From Leucocoprinus leucothites (Eukaryota > Basidiomycota > Agaricomycetes > Agaricales > Agaricaceae): DNA of 64,000 nt. The DNA is taken from assembly GCA_013368445.1 (NCBI GenBank), contig JAACJO010000022.1:434001-498000 (forward strand). The letters run 5' to 3'. Shown here in pieces: positions 2,836 to 62,990 of the stretch. Numbering within the stretch: the stretch's first letter is position 1; each line of letters starts with the position of its first letter. Below the pieces are notes generated by a model. The model saw only the letters and a program-made list of their open reading frames with translations. It searched no databases and had not been told where the DNA came from. Both the position numbers and the translations under genes were made by a program.

Positions 2836-4161
2836 CTCGTGACAATCAAAAGTGAGTCACATTTTGTGACAAACACGCTCGTGTGATTTCGAGAACCAAG
2901 AATTGTTTCACGTATTGCTCCTACTATACTTGCTCAATCTACTCAATATGTCACCTTCTGAGAACTCACGTCTTGAATATGATACTCCAATAAAAAATCA
3001 ACTGGTTGGATACTACCAAGCCACCCAAAATATTGCTGAAGCCTCGAGAGAGGTTGGGGTGAAATATCATGCAGCTCGGAAAATCATCCATAAATTTGAA
3101 GACACTGGCTCAACAGACAATTGCTCCTGGTCAGGCCGTCCCAGGGCCCTAACGGACCGCATGGAACACCGAGTTATCCGCGAATCCCTCAAGAACCACC
3201 AAAAACCATTTGCTGATATTGCAAATGATCTTAGTTTGGAGGGTGGTGGACAATCAGTCCGTCGTGCACTTGCGAGGGCTGGTTATCACCGGAGAGTTGC
3301 TAGAAGGGTTCCTTTCTTAACCAAAAGGCATCGTCGCCAGCGATTGGCGTGGGCACGACAGTTTAGAAGGTGGAAGAAGAAGCAGTTCTCGCAGATCATC
3401 TTTTCAGATGAATGCTATATTTATCTTGGTGATAAAAATGGCCGAGTTTATGTGACGCGACGTCCTGATGAAGTCCTCCGAGAGGATTGCCTTGTTCCAC
3501 AGTTTACACAGTCACCAATACACGTCATGGTGTGGGGGTGTATCATGGATGGGAAGAAGGGGCCACTGGTTGTTTTGGACTATCCTGGTGGTAAAGGTGG
3601 TGGAATGACCTCTGCCCGCTATCAGCAGCAAGTCCTTGATGGGGTGTTGGAGGACTTCTATTGGGATGCACGTGAGGAACATAGTCGTGTTTTTTTCCAG
3701 CAGGACAATGCTGCTTCACACACGAGTAATTCAACGAAGGCTTGGTTTATGTCACATCACATACCCCTCTTTCCCCATCCGGCATCATCTCCTGACATGA
3801 ATCCCATCGAGGGCATTTGGCACGAACTCAAAAAAATTATTAGACAGTCCCCTCATCCCCCCTCATCACTTGATACACTCAAAGCTACAGTCCAGGCTGC
3901 ATGGGATGAGTTATCTATTGATATAATCAACAAATATGTTGGATCCATAGAACATCGTGTTCAGTCTGTCATCCTAGCTCAAGGTGGTCACACTCGATAC
4001 TAACTATCTACTATGAATGTATACCATGTATATAATTCTATCATATAAAAATTTGGCAGTGTTTTGATGTTTGAGGGTTGAAGCGCACCGGAAAGTTTCA
4101 CCCAGTATTGAGAATCAGAGTCTCATATTATGTAATGTGACTCACTTTTGATTGTCACGAG
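2836..4161 (+). mobile_element. Tc1-like transposon K, apparently complete
   Basis: The ends are about 28-bp perfect terminal inverted repeats starting CTCGTGACAATCAAAAGTGA, flanked by TA duplications (2834-2835 and 4162-4163). The element is 1326 bp and holds one uninterrupted transposase gene. Collapsing it to one TA recreates the intron sequence seen in GTPase copy C, which proves the boundaries. Structurally this looks like a recent insertion. Confidence 0.93.
2948..4003 (+). CDS. Tc1-like DDE transposase (uninterrupted)
   Basis: It excises and integrates element K by binding its terminal inverted repeats. The frame opens at 2903, but I take the second Met (MSPSENSR, 2948) because the first 15 residues form a hydrophobic stretch alien to the family; this gives 351 residues. 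An N-terminal helix-turn-helix region (about residues 15-60, ending in a GRPRALTDR-type linker) precedes a second DNA-binding region. The catalytic triad is visible as IIFSDEC, FFQQDNAASH and PDMNPIEGIWHELK, the DD34E layout of Tc1 enzymes. The C terminus ILAQGGHTRY is typical of full-length fungal Tc1 transposases. There are no stops or frameshifts, unlike every other transposase in the window. It is the only gene in the element and ends about 160 bp before the right terminus. Confidence 0.93.
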   Translation: MSPSENSRLEYDTPIKNQLVGYYQATQNIAEASREVGVKYHAARKIIHKFEDTGSTDNCSWSGRPRALTDRMEHRVIRESLKNHQKPFADIANDLSLEGGGQSVRRALARAGYHRRVARRVPFLTKRHRRQRLAWARQFRRWKKKQFSQIIFSDECYIYLGDKNGRVYVTRRPDEVLREDCLVPQFTQSPIHVMVWGCIMDGKKGPLVVLDYPGGKGGGMTSARYQQQVLDGVLEDFYWDAREEHSRVFFQQDNAASHTSNSTKAWFMSHHIPLFPHPASSPDMNPIEGIWHELKKIIRQSPHPPSSLDTLKATVQAAWDELSIDIINKYVGSIEHRVQSVILAQGGHTRY

Positions 4162-17789: not shown

Positions 17790-19382
17790 CAGTGGCTCAA
17801 AAAACTGTCCCAATGTTTTCGCATTTTGGACATATTTGCTAATACCAGGGCAGATATATGGCCTAGCATCCTGAAAATATTCACACAGGTACCTTGACAT
17901 ATTGGGCGCATATATTCCCATGATCACATGACCTTGTCCATCAATGAATTAATAATGAATTATCGAAAATATCTACTCATTGGGACAGTTTTTTGACCCT
18001 CTGTTATCTACCTACTCAATACTTTGTATGACCTCCTCTTGCCCTGATAACTGCCTCAATCCTTCTGGGCATGCTTTCTATCAGCCTTTGGCACCTTTCT
18101 GCTGGAATCTTATTCCACTCCTCTACTAGCCTCTCCCACAATTCAAATACTCCCTTGGGTGGTCTTTCATATGCCTTCAGCTGGTCCTTCAGGTAGGTCC
18201 AGAGGTGTTCAATGGGATTTAGGTCAGGGGATTGTGCAGGCCATGGTAGAACTTGAATGTTGTTGTCCACAAACCATTGTTGTCCCAGTTTTGAGGTGTG
18301 TTTTGGGTCATTATCCTGCTGGAATATCCTCTCCTCCTCCTCCATCTCCAACTTTTCAAAGCTTTCCACCACCCCATTGTCCAAAATCTCGCAGTATTGC
18401 ACTGCATCCATATTCCCTTGAACCTCTATCAGCTTTCCTACCCCATTCCACACCATACACCCCCACACCATCATGTTACCACCTCCTCCATGTTTGACAG
18501 TAAGGAGAGTGGTCCTATCTGACAGTGGTTCCCCCCTCTCCTTCCAGGTATACACCTTTCCATCTGACCCAATCCTGTTGATCTTTGTTTCATCTGTCCA
18601 CAACACCCTCTTCCAGTCCTCCACTGTCCAATTCCTATGTTCATGTGCAAAGTCAAGGCGTTCCTCACGATGTCACTTTTTGAGTAGAGGTCGTTTGATC
18701 TTGGTTACAGAGCGAAATCCATTATCCTGAAGGGTATTTCTGACAGTTTGGGGTGTGACAGGGTCAGACAGAGTAGAGTTAATGAAAGTTGTAGCCTGGA
18801 CAGCATTGTCTAGCTTTCCAGAGGTTATTTGGTGAATTATTGCTTTTTTATCACGAGGAGAAAGCTTGGAAGGATGTCCTCCCTTGTTGTTTTCCTTGTC
18901 CCCATCAACTTCTTTCTTGATCCTCCCAACAGTAGACTTTCCTAGACCAGTTTTATGTTCAATCTGGCGCAAGGAATAGCCATCTTTGAGAAGAGAAGTG
19001 ACTTGGGAGTATTGGGTAGAAGAGATAGCTTTCATGATGTAGTGGCAGGAAGAAAGACAGTTGTAGCCATCTCAACATGTCAACCAAGGTCACATGATCT
19101 TGTTTATTACTCCCACGCCTGCCCTGATGCTCCCCTGGCATGTTACAAGGTAGATACTGGGAGGCTGACAGGGGGTCAAAAAACTGTCCCAATGAGTAGA
19201 TATTTTTGATAATTCATTATTAATTCATTGATGGACAAGGTCATGTGATCATGGGAATATATGCGCCCAATATGTCAAGGTACCCGTGTGAATATTTTCA
19301 GGATGCTAGGCCATATATCTGCCCTGGTATTAGCAAATATGTCCAAAATGCGAAAACATTGGGACAGTTTTTTGAGCCACTG
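17790..19382 (-). mobile_element. Tc1-like transposon J, copy 1, with ~210-bp terminal inverted repeats
   Basis: The ends begin CAGTGGCTCAAAAAACTGTC and are flanked by TA (17788-17789 and 19383-19384). The inverted repeats are unusually long: roughly 17790-18000 pairs with 19172-19382. The length is 1593 bp, the same as copy 2 at 41885-43477. Confidence 0.92.
18016..19035 (-). pseudogene. Tc1-J1 transposase with one in-frame stop
   Basis: The N-terminal half (MKAISSTQYSQVTSLLK, helix-turn-helix DGYSLRQIEHKTGLGKSTV) runs to a TGA after RPLLKK near 18672. Beyond it the same frame stays open to 18016 with the full catalytic core: RVLWTDETKINRIG, FQQDNDPKHTSK, SPDLNPIEHLWTYLK (DD34E) and the terminal AVIRARGGHTKY. 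The stop occupies a position where an Arg CGA is likely, so a single CpG transition would explain it. Apart from that stop the gene looks complete (about 340 codons). Confidence 0.88.
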
Positions 19383-41884: not shown

Positions 41885-43477
41885 CAGTGGCTCAAAAAAC
41901 TGTCCCAATGTTTTCGCATTTTGGACATATTTGCTAATACCAGGGCAGATATATGGCCTAGCATCCTGAAAATATTCACACAGGTACCTTGACATATTGG
42001 GCGCATATATTCCCATGATCACATGACCTTGTCCATCAATGAATTAATAATGAATTATCGAAAATATCTACTCATTGGGACAGTTTTTTGACCCTCTGTT
42101 ATCTACCTACTCAATACTTTGTATGACCTCCTCTTGCCCTGATAACTGCCTCAATCCTTCTGGGCATGCTTTCTATCAGCCTTTGGCACCTTTCTGCTGG
42201 AATCTTATTCCACTCCTCTACTAGCCTCTCCCACAATTCAAATACTCCCTTGGGTGGTCTTTCATATGCCTTCAGCTGGTCCTTCAGGTAGGTCCAGAGG
42301 TGTTCAATGGGATTTAGGTCAGGGGATTGTGCAGGCCATGGTAGAACTTGAATGTTGTTGTCCACAAACCATTGTTGTCCCAGTTTTGAGGTGTGTTTTG
42401 GGTCATTATCCTGCTGGAATATCCTCTCCTCCTCCTCCATCTCCAACTTTTCAAAGCTTTCCACCACCCCATTGTCCAAAATCTCGCAGTATTGCACTGC
42501 ATCCATATTCCCTTGAACCTCTATCAGCTTTCCTACCCCATTCCACCCCATACACCCCCACACCATCATGTTACCACCTCCTCCATGTTTGACAGTAGGG
42601 AGAGTGGTCCTATCTGACAGTGGTTCCCCCCTCTCCTTCCAGGTATACACCTTTCCATCTGACCCAATCCTGTTGATCTTTGTTTCATCTGTCCACAACA
42701 CCCTCTTCCAGTCCTCCACTGTCCAATTCCTATGTTCATGTGCAGAGTCAAGGCATTCCTCACAATGTTGCTTTTTGAGTAGAGGTCATTTGATCTTGGT
42801 TACAGAGCAAAATCCATTATCCTGAAGGGTATTTCTGACAGTTTGGGGTGTGACAGGGTCAGACAGAGTAGAGTTAATGAAATTTGTAGCCTGGACAGCA
42901 TTATCTAGCTTTCCAGAGGTTATTTGGTGAATTATTGCTTTTTTATCATGAGGAGAAAGCTTGGAAGGACATCCTCCCTTGTTGTTTTCCTTGTCCCCAT
43001 CAACTTCTTTATTGATCCTCCCAACAGTAGACTTGCCTAGACTAGTTTTATGTTCAATATGGCACAAAGAATAGCCATCTTTGAGAAGAGAAGTGACTTG
43101 GGAGTATTAGGTAGAGGAGATAGCTTTTATGATGTAGTGGCAGGAAGAAAGACAGTTGTAGCCATCTCAACATGTCAACCAAGGTCACATGATCTTGTTT
43201 ACTACTCCCACACCTGCCCTGATGCTCCCCTGGCATGTTACAAGATAGATACTGGGAGGCTGACAGGGGGTCAAAAAACTGTCCCAATGAGTAGATATTT
43301 TTAATAATTCATTACTAATTCATTGATGGACAAGGTCATGTGATCATGGGAATATATGCTCCCAATATGTCAAGGTACCTGTGTGAATATTTTCAGGATG
43401 CTAGGCCATATATCTGCCCTGGTATTAGCAAATATGTCCAAAATGCGAAAACATTGGGACAGTTTTTTGAGCCACTG
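41885..43477 (-). mobile_element. Tc1-like transposon J, copy 2
   Basis: It has the same ~210-bp inverted repeats, TA flanks (41883-41884 and 43478-43479) and 1593-bp length as copy 1. The two copies differ at scattered positions, largely C/T and G/A, concentrated in the 5' part of the transposase. Confidence 0.92.
42111..43130 (-). pseudogene. Tc1-J2 transposase with several stops
   Basis: The catalytic half (42719-42111) is open and carries RVLWTDETKINRIG, FQQDNDPKHTSK and SPDLNPIEHLWTYLK. Upstream, the frame has a stop near residue 8 (TAA in place of CAA), another after SVTKIK (a TGA where copy 1 reads CGA), and Arg-to-Gln and Arg-to-Cys changes in the segment before HEHRNWTVEDW. The lesions differ from those of copy 1, so the copies died independently after insertion. 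Confidence 0.88.
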
Positions 43478-43479
43478 TA

Positions 43480-44060
43480 TAACAGCTGGTATTCTGCCAT
43501 TGAATTTGAAAACTGTGATCCTAAACTGTGAACATATTGCATTGTGCTAAATTTGAGGAACATACCAGGTTCAGGGTCCATGGGGGAAAATCCTTGTTTG
43601 ACTGAAATTACAAGAGTCCTTGGCTATGGTGTAGGAGTCTATGGGGAGGCAGGTAGAGACCTTCTCTGCTGGCAAAAGATATAGGGCTGGTAGTCTCAAG
43701 GAAGATAACCTGCATTAGATTCAGATAACCAGGGAACAAGACTAGTTAAAAATGTACACACCTTTCCCACACTATGCTAGCACACCAAAGTGTGTCTGCA
43801 AGCTTTTAGAATGGCCTAAGCTAGGTTGTACTTTCACAGCTGGGATTTGGCTCTACTCCACCAAGGAGGATGGTCATTTTGTCCATCAGAATATCATAGA
43901 GGCACGATTTATCAATGAGCAGATGAGAATGGAGGACAGTATCTGTGTATCTAAGTGTGGTATGAACAAGGGAGGCAACTATGGAAGTCAATGTGGGAAT
44001 AATGGGCAAGGCATTTTAGAATCAGAGCTCAGGAACTGAGAATATTGGTATATCTCTACT
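43480..44060. other. No gene recognised
   Basis: CpG-poor unique sequence between Tc1-J2 and the ~118-bp array. There is no LTR continuation and no recognisable motif on either strand. Confidence 0.45.
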
Positions 44061-45740
44061 AAGTCAAAGAGAGTGTATGGGTGGCCTTGGTTGGTCTCTA
44101 CTGAGAGATCCTTTAGAGGCTGACTGATGACACAAAAGGCAATGAGCCTTGCTGTCCATGTACATTAGTGCATAGTGCTCAAGCACCATCTCACCTATTG
44201 CTTGCCTCAGTTGCACATGACTGAGATACTCAGCTAAAGCCCCCTGGATGCTGAAGAAGGATATATTAGAGTCAGCACTCAGCAATCAAGAATATCAGTG
44301 CATCTCTGCTAAGTCAAAAAGGGTGAATGGGAAGCCTTGGTTGGTCTCTACCAAGAGATCCAGTGGAGGCTGACCAACAACATGAAAGGCAATGAGTTCT
44401 GTTGTCTGTGTATGTCAGTGCATAATACTCAAGGGCTGTCTTACCCATTGCTTGGCTCGATTGTATATTACTGAGATACTCGGCAAAAAAGCCTGGATAA
44501 TGAAAAAGGATTTATTAGAGCCAGAGCTTGGGAATTGAGAATATCAGTGTAACTCTACTACTGAGTCAAAGAGAGTGTATGGGAAGCTTTGGTTGGTCAC
44601 TACTGAGAGACCCTGCAGAGGCTGACCAACAACACAAACAGCAATGAGTCCTGTTGTCTGTGTATGTTGAGGCATAAGGGTCAAGTGCAGCCTCACCTAT
44701 CACTTGCCTCAGTTGTACATTACTGAGATCCTCAGCAAAAGCTTCCTAATAACAGGAAAGGATATTTTGAAATCAGAATTCAGTGACTGAGAAGGTTGGT
44801 GAGTCTGTACTAAGCCCAAGAGTATGTATAACAAGGCTTGGTTGATCTCTACCAAGAGCTCTAGTACAGGCTTACCAATACTACAAAAAGAAATATGTCT
44901 TGGAACCATGTAGGTCAGTGTACACCAACCAAACCCATGAGAACATGTGGTTTGCCCTGCTTGAACTCCACTAAAGGACTTGGTCAGACCCACTGACAAT
45001 GCAAAAGGAAAATTTATCAGATTGAATACATTAATGCATAATGAGCAAGTGGAGTATGAACCAGGACTTACCTGGTTATACTCCACTGAGAGCCTCAGCA
45101 AATACTTGTCATGACAAAAATGGCATATTCAAGCAGAAATTATAGATATCAGTGTATATTTACCATGACAAACAGCAGATCTCAGCTGAGGGGCCTAGAC
45201 AGAGTAAACCAATGACAAAAAAAGAAAGTTTCCCTGCCAACCATGTATACTGGTAATAAACTCTGAATATAGGAGGTCCTGTAGCTTGCCTCAGATGAAC
45301 CCCAAGAGGGACAGTGAAGGCTACCTGATGGATAGTTATGGGGAATTTACTGTAGGAACAGTTAATAATTTCCCATGCATATTTACCAACTCAAGCAGAA
45401 TGCATATCTATAGTAAGAGCTATGCAGGATACTCCAACACACAAAAGGAAATAACTCCTGCATGTGTATAGGCTGGTGCACAATAACTAAGCAAGTGAGG
45501 ATGTGTGACTTACCTCAGTCAGACTCTGCCAATGGCTCTTATGGACACTCACCATTGGCACAAAGGGAAATATCCCTTGTGAACCACCTACATCAGTTCT
45601 CATCACCTGAGCTCATGAGGACTCATGGCTTACCCTGGTTATACTCAACCATAGTATCAAGTTAAAGCCCACCAGCTCTACAAAAGGTTATAATTCCTAC
45701 TGGCCAAGTACACTGGTGCCCAGTAACTGAATGTAATCAC
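44060..45740 (-). repeat. Degenerate ~118-bp tandem array of exon/intron-like units
   Basis: About fourteen units follow one another at 115-125 bp spacing. The left half shows a two-unit higher-order period near 245 bp (TTGGTTGGTCTCTAC at about 44090, 44337 and 44590). On the minus strand a typical unit reads GTAAGTCC, about 60 nt, CTGAT, pyrimidine tract, TTGTCAG, then 36-39 nt encoding 12-13 residues such as QPLKDLSVETNQ, QPPLDLLVETNQ, KPVLELLVEINQ or ALAEYLSHVQLR. Many donor and acceptor sites have since mutated. Confidence 0.7.
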
Positions 45741-52353: not shown

Positions 52354-52518
52354 TTAGATGTTATCTTGATAGTGTAAGAGTAGACCAACCATAACTCCCA
52401 TAATAAAATCCACAAAATCCTGAACAGAATAGTTTTGAGGAGGTGCAGTAAAGTGTTGTGTGATTTTAGATCCAATATTCAACTTCTGGCATTCCAAATG
52501 TGCTTGGGATAGAGCTGA
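52354..52518 (-). other. Candidate terminal exon of the minus-strand GTPase gene
   Basis: A strong acceptor, GGCCTTTCCCCCCAG, ends at 52519 on the minus strand. From there a phase-0 frame of 54 codons (SALSQAHLECQKLNIGSK, then HFTAPPQNYSVQDFVDF) runs to a TAA. It would match the phase left by exon 7 and by a string of 3-nt exons. No family motif confirms it, and an alternative end exists at 52627. Confidence 0.3.
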
Positions 52519-52626
52519 CTGGGGGGAAAGGCCAAAAGGACGTAAAGTAGTAGCATGCTTTAAAAGGATAATAATGACTACAGCAAAGTTAAGAGATGCA
52601 TTGAGGGGTACAAAGACAAATACCAG

Positions 52627-52803
52627 TCATAAGATGACATCCAGGAGTGCCAGAGGAAAACTAGGAAAATAGATCAGGAGATTCAAGCTAAGACTTTCCT
52701 TAAGAGCAATACCTGTTTGGTGATTGTCATTGACATAATAAGTGGTACTGGTACTGAAGTGAGTAAGGGCAAAGTGGAGGGAGTAAGCACAGGCACTCAT
52801 GGA
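52627..52803 (-). other. Open phase-0 extension of the last minisatellite unit
   Basis: In the last unit on the gene strand the donor GTGAGT has become ATGAGT. From its acceptor the phase-0 frame stays open for 58 codons (SMSACAYSLHFALTHF onward) into unique sequence, then meets TGA. This could be a terminal exon. Evidence is the frame and the lost donor only. Confidence 0.35.
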
Positions 52804-55600
52804 CTGGAGAGGAGAGGACAAGCTATTTCAGCAAAGACAAAACAAAGTAAGTCAGCACAGGCACTCACATTCTAGAGAACAGAGAACAGCCAACATCAGC
52901 AGGGGAAAAACAGAGCAAGCCAGCACAGGCACTCACATCCTGGAGAACAGAGGACAGCCAACATCAGTAGTGGGAAAACAGCACAAGCCAACACAGGCAC
53001 TCACATCCTAGAAAATAGAGGACAGCCAACATTAGCAGTGGGAAAACAGCACAAGCCAACACAGGCACTCACATCCTAGAAAACAGAGGACAGCCAACAT
53101 CAGCAGGGGGAAAACAGAGCAAGCCAGCACAGGCACTCACCAACTGGAGAACAGAGGACAGCCAATATCAGCAGTGGGAAAACAGCGCAAGCCAACACAG
53201 GTACTCACATCCTAGAGAACAGAGGACAGCCAACATCAGCAAAGGAAAAACAGCACAAGCCAACACAGACACTCACCAACTGGAGAACAGAGGACAGCCA
53301 ACTTCAGCAGGGAGAAAACAGAGCAAGCCAACACAGGCACTCACACCCTGGAGAACAGAGGACAGCCAACATCAGCAGGGGGAAAACAGAGCAAGCCAGC
53401 ACAGGCACTCACAGCCTGGAGGACAGAGGACAGCCAACATCAGCAGGGAAAAAACAGAGCAAGCTAGCACAGGCACTCACCCACTAGAGAACAGAGAACA
53501 GCCAACATCAGTAGGGGAAAAACAGAGTAAGCCAACACAGGCACTCACATCCTAAAAAACAGAGGACAGCCAACATCAGCAGGGGAAAAACAGAGTAAGC
53601 CAACACAGGCACTCACATCCTAGAAAACAGAGGACAGCCAACATCAGCAGGGGGAAAACAGTGCAAGCCAACACAGGCACTCACCAACTGGAGAACAGAG
53701 GACAGCCAACATCAGCAGGGGGAAAATAGAGCAAGCCAGCACAGGCACTCACATCCTGGAGAACAGAGGACAGCCAACATCAGCAGGAAGAAAACAGAGC
53801 AAGCTAGCACAGGCACTCACATCCTGGAGAACAGAGGACAGCCAACATCAGCAGTGGGAAAACAGAGCAAGCCAACACAGGCACTCACCAACTGGAGAAC
53901 AGAGGACAGCCAACATCAGCAGGGGGAAAATAGAGCAAGCCAGCACAGGCACTCACATCCTGGAGAACAGAGGACAGCCAACATCAGCAGGAAGAAAACA
54001 GAGCAAGCTAGCACAGGCACTCACATCCTGGAGAACAGAGGACAGCCAACATCAGCAGTGGGAAAACAGAGCAAGCCAACACAGGCACTCACCAACTGGA
54101 GAACAGAGGACAGCCAACATCAGCAGGGGGAAAATAGAGCAAGCCAGCACAGGCACTCACATCCTGGAGAACAGAGGACAGCCAACATCAGCAGGGAGAA
54201 AACAGAGCAAGCTAGCACAGGCACTCACATCCTGGAGAACAGAGGACAGCCAACATCAGCAGGGGGAAAATAGAGCAAGCCAACACAGGCACTTACAGCC
54301 TGGAGAACAGAGGACAGCCAACATCAGCAGGGAAAAAACAGAGCAAGCTAGCACAGGCACTCACCCACTAGAGAACAGAGAACAGCCAACATCAGCAGGG
54401 GAAAAACAGAGCAAACCAGCACAGGCACTCACATCCTGGAGAACAGAGGACAGCCAACATTAGCAGGGGGAAAACAGAGCAAGCCAACACAGGCACTCAC
54501 CAACTGGAGAACAGAGGACAGCCAACATCAGCAGGGGAAAATAGAGCAAGCCAGCACAGGCACTCACATCCTGGAAAATAGAGGACAGCCAACATCAGCA
54601 GGGAGAAAACAGAGCAAGCTAGCACAGGCACTCACATCCTAGAGAACAGAGGACAGCCAACATCAGCAGGGGGAAAACAGAGCAAGCCAACACAGGCACT
54701 TACAGCCTAGAGAACAGAGGACAGCCAACATCAGCAGGGAAAAAACAGAGCAAGCTAGCACAGGCACTCACCCACTAGAGAACAGAGAACAGCCAACATC
54801 AGCAGGGGAAAAACAGAGCAAACCAGCACAGGCACTCACATCCTGGAGAACAGAGGACAGCCAACATTAGCAGGGGGAAAACAGAGCAAGCCAACACAGG
54901 CACTCACCAACTAGAGAACAGAGGACAGCCAACATCAGCAGGGGAAAATAGAGCAAGCCAGCACAGGCACTCACATCCTGGAAAACAGAGGACAGCCAAC
55001 ATCAGCAGGGAGAAAACAGAGCAAGCTAGCACAGGCACTCACATCCTGGAGAACAGAGGACAGCCAACATCAGCAGGGGGAAAACAGAGCAAGCCAACAC
55101 AGGCACTTACAGCCTGGAGAACAGAGGACAGCCAACTTCAGCAGGGAAAAAACAGAGCAAGCTAGCACAGGCACTCACCCACTAGAGAACAGAGAACAGC
55201 CAACGTCAGCAGGGGAAAAACAGAGCAAGCCAGCACAGGTGCTCACCAACTGGAGAACAGAGGACAGCCAACATCAGCAGTGGGAAAACAGTGCAAGCCA
55301 ACACAGGCACTCACATCCTAGAGAACAGAGGACAGCCAACATCAGCAGGGGGAAAACAGCACAAGCCAACACAGATACTCACCACCTGGAGAACAGAGGA
55401 CAGCCAACATCAGCAGGGGGAAAACAGAGCAAGCCAGCACAGGCACTCACAGCCTGGAGGACAGAGGACAGCCAACATCAGCAGGGAAAAAACAGAGCAA
55501 GCTAGCACAGGCACTCACCCACTAGAGAACAGAGAACAGCCAACATCAGCAGGGGAAAAACAGAGCAAGCCAGCACAGGCACTCACTAACTGGAGAATAG
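52788..55600 (-). repeat. 68-bp minisatellite, ~41 units, shaped as 65-nt intron plus 3-nt exon
   Basis: The unit is 68 bp and recurs about 41 times with over 85-90% similarity by eye. On the minus strand each reads GTGAGTGCC, TGCTGATG (branch-site-like), CTGTCCTCTGTTCTCCAG, then three variable bases, then GTGAGTGCC again. The triplets seen are GAT, TTG, TGG, GCT, GTG, GGT, AAT and TTA; none is a stop. Donors vary only to GTAAGT or GTGAGC, acceptors only between CCAG, CTAG and TTAG. Higher-order periods of three units (204 bp, about 53680-54230) and six units (408 bp, about 54290-55180) are visible. It begins 59 nt after exon 7 of the minus-strand GTPase gene. Confidence 0.9.
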
Positions 55601-55648
55601 AGGACAGGTGACATCAGCAGAGGCAAGTGAGTGAGCAGAGGTACCCAC

Positions 55649-56766
55649 CCAGATGTATGGGAATGGCCTCAGACATTTCTTCATAATATCTTCAGCATCA
55701 CTCCCCAAATGCAGTAATGTACTGTGTTTGTGGAATGTCATATAACCCTCCACATCTGTTATGCAAGCATACTCACTGCTCAACAGCTAGCTTGACACTT
55801 AATTCCACATTACTCCTCTGCACTGCCACAAGCATCAAGGTCACTGCATTGTCATTCAATGCTCTAGCTGTCTCTTCAATAAGTTCCTTGCAGCACCCAT
55901 TCAGCTTGTGCATTTCTGACAGATGAGCATTAGCACATAGCTAAAAATCTATATCCTGAACTCACTCTCTAATCGCACATACTTAGCTCCAGCACCGAGG
56001 TGGCAGTGGTAGTTCTCCTCAAACTGTATCTCAGGCGTGGTCCCTGCCCCATTGACATCCCCATCCTCCAAATCCATTTCCACGTCCAGCTTGAATTGGT
56101 CATATTTCGTGAACACTGCAATAACAGGGACTTCAAAATCATGAGTTAACCTCTATGGCAATGCTTTATACTCACGCACCATTTTGATCAGGGCAGATAT
56201 CTTTGAAATGCTTCAAATCAAGCTCCGGTCGCTGGTTGTCCATGGGAACGCAGTACCTTTAAATATGACTGTCAGTAGTTGCAATCATCAATGCTCAAAA
56301 CTCCGAACCATATCGCATGTAATCTAGATGCCAGTCGCTTTTCTCCAGACTTCTGTCGCACAAAGTTCTGCACAATCTCCAATTCGTTTATGCCCCCCGA
56401 CTCAAATCCGCGGGAATCATGAAAAACATAACCTTCATGGTTGGAGAAAACGATCTCGTCGTCAATCTCGTGCTCACCACGCTGGCTCAAGAGTCAGTAG
56501 TAACCAACAAATGGTAATATATTACCCACATCCATAGATGGGTCGAGTTGAATCTAGTCAGATGGTGAGACCAAACTGGCAGAGTTGATAAAGCTGAGAC
56601 ACCGTACTGGTTCTTCCTCCCAGCCGTTTCGCCTGTAAATAACTGGACTTTCCGTAGTTTCGCAGACTCTCTGTAAGATAGAGGTCTTGCCAGCATTTGC
56701 CCTTCCAATAATCAGGACTCGGAACTTGATTTTTGGGAGCCGACGAGGGGCCTGTTGCGTAGACAT
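55649..56766 (-). CDS. P-loop GTPase (AIG1/septin-like G-domain family of agarics), 3' end uncertain
   Basis: A predicted small GTPase-fold protein of a family expanded in mushroom fungi; its cellular role is unknown. Seven exons join in phase on the minus strand: 56766-56608, 56553-56530, 56481-56309, 56256-56180, 56130-55966, 55915-55777 and 55721-55649 (270 codons). All introns are 45-70 nt with GT-AG ends, and most have a CTGAC-type branch site. G1 is IIGRANAGKTS (residues about 19-29), the DxxG region is FHDSRGFESG and G4 is VFTKYDQF. Exon 7 ends FPYIW, where relatives continue into a helical C-terminal part. Here a 59-nt intron leads into the 68-bp minisatellite, so the gene is either C-terminally truncated or continues through the array to exons near 52.8-52.35 kb. 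It is divergent to GTPase copy B, with about 400 bp between the two ATGs. Confidence 0.82.
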
Positions 56767-61036: not shown

Positions 61037-62990
61037 ATGGAACCCGAGTCCACAATCGACGATATCATCAAAAGTGTGCAGAGGTAGGTACAGCTTTCGG
61101 AACCCGAGTCGTTTCTACTGACTTCGGCGATTTAGATTCCGCATCCTGTCCATTGGTCGGGTCAGTTAGCTGTGGTCTTACCTTCTCATATCATCGGGCT
61201 AATCGCCCACCAGTCTGGTGTTGGGAAATCGTCGCTGGTTAACTGTGTATTCGGTATCACCGGCGCGGTAAGAGGCTCTAATGCAGGACGAATGTGGGTT
61301 AACTACCACTGATGGTCTTCTGTTGTAGCGCGTTTCGCACTTAAAACCTGGAGAATCGGATATTGAGCAAGAATTCATCTCACAAGACAACCCATTTTTT
61401 GTTCTTCACGATTCTAAAGGCTTCGAACCAGGAGATATTACCAATTTTGAGATTGTACGTGAATTTATCGAGCAACGTTCCAAACAGGGACTGCCCCTGA
61501 AGGACCGAATCCATGGTCTGTGGTGCGTATATTTCTCTTCCCACCCACCGGCGCTCCTTTCACCGTCATCATGACAGGCTCTGTACGAAGACGCCCGCGG
61601 CCGGGGGTCGTGTTTTCGAGATAGGAGACGAGAAGCTGCTCGAATTTGCCCACAAAATCCAAAGTACGCTCTTGACCTCTCCTTTATTACACTCCGTTCT
61701 AATCGATTGGTGATTCTCGATCAGTTCCTGTTGTAATTGTGTTTACTCAGTACGATCGATTAGTAAGGACGAAGAAGGCTGAGTTGAAAGATGAGCACCC
61801 AAATATGGATCCAGCGACTCTCGATGAACGTGGTAAAGACGAGGCCCGGAAAGCGTTTGAGATATGTGTACAGTCTCTCCAGCATACAATGAATCGCCTC
61901 AAGATCCCGATGCCGGATTATGTCAAAGTTTCGGGTATGTTTGTGCCATTGTATGATCTATCCGGTCTTGACCGCTCCCTAGTTCGTCCTGGCTATAAGG
62001 AAGATGTTTCAGCTCTCGTGGAAGTTACCCGGGATATTGTCAAAGAACGGCTCAAGGGCGATGCTTGGATCATGTGGGCGATAGCACAACGAGCGAGTCT
62101 CCCGGTCAAAATCGAAGCTTGCATCACGTAGGTTTCATCCACCGTTTTGGGGTAATACCATTTATTCACGTCGATTTCTGGCTGGAAAGCAAGGGCATGA
62201 GTTGTATGTGACCCAGGTGTTAGTCTCATCACCACCCTTAACAGTATCTTAGATTACAGACGTGTCCTTACCGGTACCATGCCTGGATTCGGACAGATCT
62301 TGCTTCGCAGCTGCCTCATGGAAGTCCACAATGACATCATCAAATGTTGGAACTTTAGGGGCGAGGTAGATTAAATTTGTTTTATGTGACGCCTACTCAA
62401 CTTACGCCCTCATCCTAGGTCCTCAACACTGAAGAATTCAAGCAACTGATGCTACATCTCGTCCAAGATGTTCATACGAAACCTGATGTCTCGACGTATG
62501 TGCTCATGTATATTACTTGATGACTTTTGACATTTCTTTCAGTTCTCCGAACATTGACAAGATCTCTCAATTTGTGAGCCTCGTCACTGCTGCCTCTGCT
62601 CCTATTGCGCCGCCCGTCGCCATCCTAGGCTTGACGTATATCTTTCTGCAATGGCTTTCGACCACTGCTTTGGATAACATGTACGTATCTTTGCTTATCC
62701 GTATGATCTGATAATTATTGATGACCCCTAGACCTGAGGTTCAACGTCTTCTAGTCGCTTACATTGTGGATCTCGTCAATGTTTTGAGAGAACTCTTTGA
62801 CTTTACGCTCAAACCTACCCTAGCTTTGACAACAACGTGGGAAGAGCTGAGAGAGGCATTTGAGGCATATGAGCGCTCGTCCTCTCGTCAACGCATCCAC
62901 AATATCATTTGCTCAAAAGTGCCGCAGGGTGAACAAACTCTAACTGCAAATGGTCTTGACGAGAACGTTCGTGCATTGGTGGATGGATAA
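61037..62990 (+). CDS. P-loop GTPase copy C, intact, 11 exons, 451 residues
   Basis: A GTPase-fold protein of the agaric-expanded family; substrate and location are unknown. Exons: 61037-61083, 61136-61160, 61214-61267, 61329-61522, 61578-61663, 61725-61934, 61983-62127, 62245-62365, 62419-62495, 62543-62680, 62732-62990. All junctions are GT-AG and phases sum to 452 codons with TAA. G1 is SIGRSGVGKSS (about residues 21-31), the DxxG box FVLHDSKGFEPGD, and G4 IVFTQYDRL, where Thr-Gln replaces the usual Asn-Lys of NKxD. The middle carries a charged helix (TKKAELKDEHPNMDPATLDE) and VRPGYKEDVSALVEVTRDIV. The C-terminal part has a hydrophobic segment (ASAPIAPPVAILGLTYIFLQ) that could insert in or sit on a membrane. 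Unmutated CpGs, clean splice sites and a full-length frame mark it as the live member of the A/B/C set. Confidence 0.88.

Follow-up and report, generated by a model that had tools for sequence, protein, structure and literature searches.

This analysis indicated that a 68-bp minisatellite in a GTPase gene of Leucocoprinus leucothites is very probably an array of complete introns separated by single codons, whose serial splicing would write a hypervariable linker between the G domain and the C-terminal helical part of the protein. The array lies on the minus strand of the window, i.e., the whole stretch of 64,000 nucleotides analyzed. That its triplets act as single-codon exons had been proposed in a first-pass annotation of this DNA, and the proposal is now supported by downstream exons lying in phase, by the codon-like evolution of the triplets, by the scarcity of change at core splice sites and by linkers in transcript-like open reading frames (ORFs) of related fungi.

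Anatomy of the Array and of Its Host Gene

TRF delimited one tandem array (52786-55620, period 68, 41.7 copies), which resolves on the minus strand into 42 AG-NNN-donor junctions at 68-bp spacing (67 bp for two of them) with 41 internal triplets, in line with the approximately 41 intron-plus-codon units announced earlier. Exon 7 does end in phase 0 at 55649 and is followed by a 59-nt intron, as the first-pass annotation had stated; the other array introns measure 65 nt (39 introns) or 64 nt (two introns). Donors fit GT[AG]AG[TC] at 41 of the 42 junctions, and the final one reads ATGAGT. The triplets comprise the eight hypervariable kinds already recognized (GAT, TTG, TGG, GCT, GTG, GGT, TTA, and AAT) and a terminal TCC, without any stop. 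In terms of splice anatomy, this is a micro-exon gene in the broad sense, with 41 internal 3-nt exons. One intron column of the window array varies like the triplets (pi 0.51, as compared with 0.44-0.66).

The end of the array had been only partly understood. The last unit has indeed lost its donor (ATGAGT), but the open frame of 58 codons attributed to it is not a terminal exon: alignment of the 13 paralogues revealed a 7-nt exon (52803-52797), then a 49-nt intron with GTGCCT as its donor, followed by three conserved coding exons which end at 52354. Of the two candidate downstream acceptors, 52803 was thus retained and 52518 discarded, as it falls inside the last exon. Throughout the family, the old donor of the last unit is altered and GTGC.., four bases on, is the donor; the 7-nt exon reads TCCATAA, TCTATAA, TCTACAA, CACATTG, CCTATCT or CATAATG in the other genes. 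Together, the 7-nt exon and the three conserved exons encode 100 residues (SMIPLIMSMTITKQ...LLHYQDNI) and continue the array in phase, giving a predicted protein of 270 + 41 + 100 residues (Table 1).

Table 1. Predicted exons and array of the GTPase gene in the window.
Feature	Position	Strand	Basis
Exon 1 (ATG, P-loop GRANAGKTS)	56608..56766	-	Splice model and 13-paralogue alignment
Exon 2	56530..56553	-	
Exon 3	56309..56481	-	
Exon 4	56180..56256	-	
Exon 5	55966..56130	-	
Exon 6	55777..55915	-	
Exon 7, ends FPYIW, phase 0	55649..55721	-	
Array, 42 introns and 41 single-codon exons, LWAVDLWADDLDWADDLDWADDLDDLDDLDDWAGLDLDDDN	52804..55648	-	TRF, junction and exon coordinates
Last unit, 7-nt exon TCCATGA; ATGAGT at the old donor position, donor GTGCCT 4 nt further	52797..52803	-	13-paralogue alignment
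C-terminal exon, ..LIMSMTITKQ	52713..52747	-	Paralogue alignment
C-terminal exon, FSSGTPGCHLMT	52624..52660	-	
Last exon, VIIILLKHATTL...LLHYQDNI and stop	52354..52577	-	

Named homologues of the GTPase were all fungal among the 120 of 1329 matches listed. As to a possible TRAFAC-type GTPase, the window protein scored 18.8 bits with Pfam MMR_HSR1, below the cut-off of 21.9. The best Foldseek matches were EngB and a bacterial dynamin-like protein, with GIMAP7 and IRG lower; query TM-scores did not exceed 0.31 in the best 50 rows, so that the likeness to the EngB, dynamin-like, GIMAP and IRG folds is weak. The predicted structure of P0001, a gene model without the linker (mean pLDDT 68.7, pTM 0.56), shows low confidence at residues 250-269, a joint connecting the G-domain-like part to the helical C-terminal part; this is where the linker would sit.

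Thirteen Arrays at One Site of One Gene Family

Within the assembly (47 Mb, 110 contigs), 301 array bases gave 121 matches in 13 places, and each place adjoins exons of this GTPase gene. When three GTGAGT donors linked through AG-NNN were taken as a pattern, it was matched 310 times in the 47 Mb and its reversed form, used as a control, was not matched at all, indicating that the pattern does not arise by chance. All 310 matches to this GTGAGT form fall in the 13 arrays (the window and 12 paralogues), which occupy a single homologous, phase-0 site of the gene; this is not the distribution of introner-like elements. A dispersed repeat was also rejected, as these searches found the array in this GTPase family only. 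The family totals 398 introns and 385 internal triplets, from 14 triplets per gene (C30, C37) up to 76 (C27a). Almost every intron is complete in itself, with its own GT donor in 394 of 398 (GTGAGT in 365), an AG in all 398 and a CTRAY branch motif in 392, and the distance from the branch A to the end of the intron is 24 nt in 383; such introns are not stwintrons.

Eleven of the 13 genes have intact 5' exons, C22b carrying several stops and C37 a frameshift. In all 11 intact genes, the C-terminal frame is in phase; it is open in C22b, yet two donors are lost there, and C37 shifts frame in its last exon. Purifying selection acts on both flanks of the array, with median dN/dS of 0.36 (range 0.17-2.21) and 0.41 (0.16-1.11), respectively, over 55 pairs each of the 11 intact genes. 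The G domains of C52 and C30 agree at 263 of 269 residues, but their predicted linkers of 19 and 14 residues are identical at 7 of 13 aligned positions. Overall, the 13 predicted linkers contain 15-47% acidic residues and 24-50% F/W/Y/L/V. Two donors of C19 have been lost (ATGAGT twice), so that some units must be dispensable. Intron retention would mostly break the frame: on the sense strand, ORFs do not exceed 56 codons in the eight 68-bp arrays, C22b and C37, but the array frames of C52, C30 and C19 are uninterrupted over 170-332 codons.

A 14th copy of the gene (L021, C30:289260-289730) ends after exon 3 and has no array; the sequence beyond the break looks by eye like a mobile element. 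A second, divergent GTPase gene stands head-to-head with 8 of the 13 array genes, approximately 0.7-7 kb away (34-44% identity over the matched part), and also occurs at C22b (approximately 9 kb) and at the truncated 14th copy, as a conserved divergent pair. In the window, the array gene (55649-56766, minus strand) is paired with a GTPase match at 61344-61553 (+).

Linkers in Transcript-Like ORFs of Related Fungi

Ten proteins of related fungi, encoded by short contigs (914-1781 bp), cross several intron positions of the family without a break in frame, and these contigs thus look like cDNA. In all ten ORFs, FPY[ILA]W is followed by 29-63 residues, mostly rich in D/L/F, and then by the C-terminal core, with linkers such as DDHHHFLLLDGDLLFDDDDFLFLDDDFLFDDLDL (P0012) and FDFFFSDDDDDLDLDLLDDLFDDDLDNLFFDL (P0122), to which a few final residues are added before the core begins. 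Seven of them have a core of the IM[SA]M type (P0012, P0022, P0095, P0121, P0122, P0124, and P0127; contigs of 1016-1781 bp), and the composition of their linkers is close to that of the triplets (cosine 0.916) and more remote from that of the G domain (0.539) or of the unspliced array (0.42-0.43). The other three (P0129, P0130, and P0138), which are Lactarius-like by eye, also have a stretch at the linker place, with cosines of 0.679 to the triplets, 0.706 to the G domain and 0.63-0.64 to the unspliced array, so that they resemble the triplet composition no more than the G domain does. P0130 and P0138 share 108 of 112 residues ahead of the linker but 14 of 32 aligned residues inside it; P0138 departs from the core shortly after IIGLHTIQN. 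In P0127, DDDDDDLDDFT is present twice, as expected from higher-order repeats of units. We infer that the linker of these relatives, too, is divided into single-codon exons, although one ordinary exon might encode it instead.

This comparison used 8 of 28 listed proteins, together with P0012 and P0022 from the first search. It left out the genome models on long contigs (P0002, P0003, P0010, P0011, P0116, P0123, and P0140), P0125 and P0126 (linker-like residues with an out-of-frame start, by eye), P0139 (W and a D/L/Y/H-rich stretch, without the core), P0141 and P0142 (FPYIW without such a linker) and eight proteins which start downstream of the linker. Among the 120 of 1329 matches listed in the first search, eight proteins came from short contigs and three of these had both linker and core; of the other five, P0017 has a different long insert and four stop at most 26 residues past the FPYIW/FPHIW/FPYIY motif, an early end which could reflect intron retention. 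A protein search with residues 240-397 of P0012 matched P0012 and P0022 only, and a search of viral contigs with P0012 gave no match. P0022 and P0125 contain an extra stretch, VSISRYSIFMNK, at the position of an L. leucothites intron, which may reflect either intron retention or a shift of the splice site. Residues 1-48 of P0012 do not align with the family, alignment beginning at residue 49; they are perhaps exon 1 in another frame followed by a retained first intron.

These ORFs bear on how many of the triplets would reach the mRNA. Splicing could be combinatorial, any donor being joined to any downstream acceptor so that each transcript would carry a variable subset of the codons. The near-identity of the donors (365 of 398 being GTGAGT) would allow this, every combination is in frame, and P0084 and P0098 of relatives seem, by eye, to enter an intron after a few linker codons. 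We nevertheless regard it as rather unlikely, while it overlaps with the serial splicing favored here: the conservation of splice sites in nearly all units and the many-residue linkers both suggest high inclusion.

Removal of the entire array as a single 2.8-kb intron (55648 to 52804), with triplets that never or rarely enter the mRNA, is far less probable. Such a jump would keep the frame, both ends being in phase 0, and it is what the deposited NCBI models P0001 and P0002 (paralogues C9a and C48) propose. Both of these are predictions; automatic gene models overlook the array, the deposited ones read for this genome either skipping it or, as in P0003 and P0010, running into intron sequence (a reading by eye). 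An intron of this size would be out of scale in a gene whose nine other introns measure 46-55 nt, as calculated from exon coordinates, and the transcript-like ORFs of relatives do have a linker. Moreover, skipping predicts neither codon-like evolution of the triplets nor frozen internal splice sites, both of which were observed (see below).

Triplets Evolve as Codons Between Frozen Splice Sites

Sequence variation was clearly partitioned within the unit. In the 11 intact genes, deviation from the locus consensus was found at 4 of 2776 core splice sites (0.14%), at 751 of 17743 intron-body sites (approximately 4%) and at 491 of 1041 triplet sites (approximately 47%), these counts being based on the 347 of 366 units which have the consensus length, with C22b and C37 counted apart. 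The first-pass annotation had asked whether substitutions avoid the splice motifs or whether these mutate as freely as the rest of the unit; the splice positions do not mutate that freely. In the eight intact 68-bp genes, mean pi reached 0.59, 0.62 and 0.56 in the three triplet columns and 0.21 in the next column, and was 0.00 at GT, acceptor AG and branch A, although intron columns reached up to 0.52 in individual genes. Such similar repeats, with diversity concentrated in the triplet columns, are in line with concerted evolution. In the diverged array of C19, the core was changed at 2 of 112 sites and the body at 105 of 728. The broken genes had 0 of 72 (C37) and 2 of 88 (C22b) core changes, and neither contained a triplet stop; this order either outlives the loss of the gene for a time or reflects recent breakage.

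The triplets themselves behave as codons. The freedom from stops noted earlier in the window extends to all 385 internal triplets of the family (28 codons), where 34.8-36.6 stops would be expected with independent positions, a figure which ignores the shared descent of units. When descent was represented by minimum spanning trees of distinct units, the triplet was changed on 109 of 261 edges, for which 6.4 stops were expected (P approximately 0.002). Among 69 single-base triplet changes, 2 were synonymous and 67 were not, while 10.8-18.5 synonymous changes were expected. Triplet changes comprised 46 transitions and 113 transversions, as compared with 471 and 82, respectively, in the intron bodies. 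At position 3, where C for T is always silent, the C:T ratio was 3:217, similar to the 81:7439 of intron T columns (p 0.52); the purine:T ratio was 165:217 against 52:7439 (odds ratio 109). Silent change thus proceeds at the intron rate and purine change is enriched about 109-fold, which indicates that the triplets evolve as codons. With the introns as a neutral reference, it is the encoded residue that changes, and the triplets are apparently under diversifying selection, as judged from these substitution patterns. As the units are copies of each other, all of these P values are weakened and serve as guides only.

Minisatellites are known inside introns, and a non-coding one might resemble a series of splice sites through intron duplication alone. 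Units are indeed alike within a gene: across the eight intact arrays of 68-bp units, their mean pairwise difference is 3.5-6.9 of 68. Homogenization, however, cannot spare GT, AG and the branch alone, as the core and body counts would require; nor does it account for C19, where units differ by 16 of 69 and the core is nearly unchanged, or for triplets that are stop-free and codon-like, making this explanation most improbable. Coding by the plus strand is hardly credible: antisense ORFs reach 545 aa (279 aa in the window) and cover all or nearly all of the array in C9a, C18, C52 and C30, but the longest one spans less than 85% of the array in 9 of the 13 genes, the 68-bp unit shifts the frame at each copy, and antisense stops would be few simply because the sense strand is poor in A.

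Some features of composition should also be mentioned. ATN and ACN codons are absent from the 385 triplets, for 13.5 and 3.7 expected from position frequencies. The encoded residues lack Ile, Met, Gln, Cys and Thr, and the first four of these also stand at 0.00, after rounding, in the seven IM[SA]M-type linkers of relatives. Substitutions in the intron bodies of the 13 loci are mostly of two kinds, with 4.7% for C to T and 5.4% for G to A as against 1.1% for T to C, a bias which resembles a C-to-T mutation process on both strands.

Proposed Mechanism and Significance

From a mechanistic point of view, the repeat unit would be a complete spliceosomal intron plus one codon. Short introns are recognized as units in fungi, and in each array unit a strong donor is combined with a branch motif and a pyrimidine tract. 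The introns would be removed singly, probably from 5' to 3' during transcription, three bases being added at each step, until the 41 single-codon exons are joined into an acidic, Leu-containing and aromatic linker. The sequence features suggest that most triplets would be included in the mRNA of L. leucothites. Because all introns are in phase 0 and the internal exons are 3 nt long, gain, loss or skipping of units stays in frame, and the reading frame could be broken only by intron retention. Unequal exchange of units would then shift the length of the linker by one residue each, the codons diversifying under selection and the splice signals staying fixed.

The purpose may be to provide a large fungal GTPase family with a rapidly diversifying linker, possibly for recognition. 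This role is only guessed at from the way in which diversity is distributed, which resembles that of the repeats of fungal NLR proteins (PMC4986451). We tentatively propose, with some doubt, a new generator of diversity, in which the linker of recognition-type GTPases would be rewritten residue by residue through unequal exchange, with many in-frame isoforms added by free choice of donor and acceptor. If serial splicing occurs as proposed, dozens of exons in a row, each of the shortest length that keeps the frame, would spell out a protein sequence, and a mostly intronic minisatellite would alter a protein by one residue per unit, copy number being tied to protein length without risk to the frame. 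Such serial 3-nt exons would probe a limit of the spliceosome, and the family would offer a natural system for studying intron multiplication through tandem duplication.

Comparison With Known Systems

In the micro-exon genes of Schistosoma, most exons measure 15 bp (the range is given as 6-81 bp in the body of the paper and as 3-81 bp in its abstract), the introns span 100-5000 bp and the products are secreted (PMC10526429). The likeness lies in the many very short exons, mostly divisible by three; here, by contrast, 14-76 consecutive 3-nt exons alternate with near-identical introns of approximately 65 nt in a tandem array, in a GTPase gene. The protein is not a secreted homologue with a signal peptide, as it starts with a P-loop GTPase domain. 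Aphid bicycle genes also have many micro-exons, more than 100 in one candidate homologue (PMC9168663). They resemble the array gene in this respect. To our knowledge, their exons exceed a codon and form no tandem intron-plus-codon repeat.

Closer to L. leucothites, the P450 genes of Phanerochaete chrysosporium have short introns and microexons, the shortest exon being 6 bp (PMC1184071). The short introns of basidiomycetes are common to both, whereas those microexons are single and scattered, without an array. In Podospora, the WD/ANK/TPR repeats of NLR proteins (HET-D, HET-R and relatives) are near-identical, evolve in concert and vary in number, with diversifying selection at specific codons (PMC4986451). 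Those repeats are fully coding; here, 65 of 68 bases are intronic and only the hypervariable codon is coding. Near-identical introns also multiply in fungi as introners, introner-like elements and stwintrons, but introners occupy many gene positions and stwintrons are nested, whereas the present introns have multiplied in tandem, at one site, each with a codon.

In recursive splicing, a second step makes use of a donor beside the newly formed exon-exon junction, and a 6-nt microexon could be made in this way in a reporter (PMC6224609). The recursive donor is part of the junction, and its exon may disappear, whereas three coding bases would stay at each step here. In the accessible part of PMC9860276, we found nothing on tandem introns. 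No description of such intron-plus-codon arrays was found in the open literature searched, most subscription journals lying outside the search.

Other Repeats in the Window

A second tandem repeat was present at 44016-44878 (period of approximately 250 bp, 2.9-3.5 copies). The window also contains Tc1/mariner-like transposase frames and Gypsy-like polyprotein frames, named by eye and several of them in pieces, at 2870-4003, 18016-19071 and 42111-43106, and within 13-18 kb and 32-41 kb.
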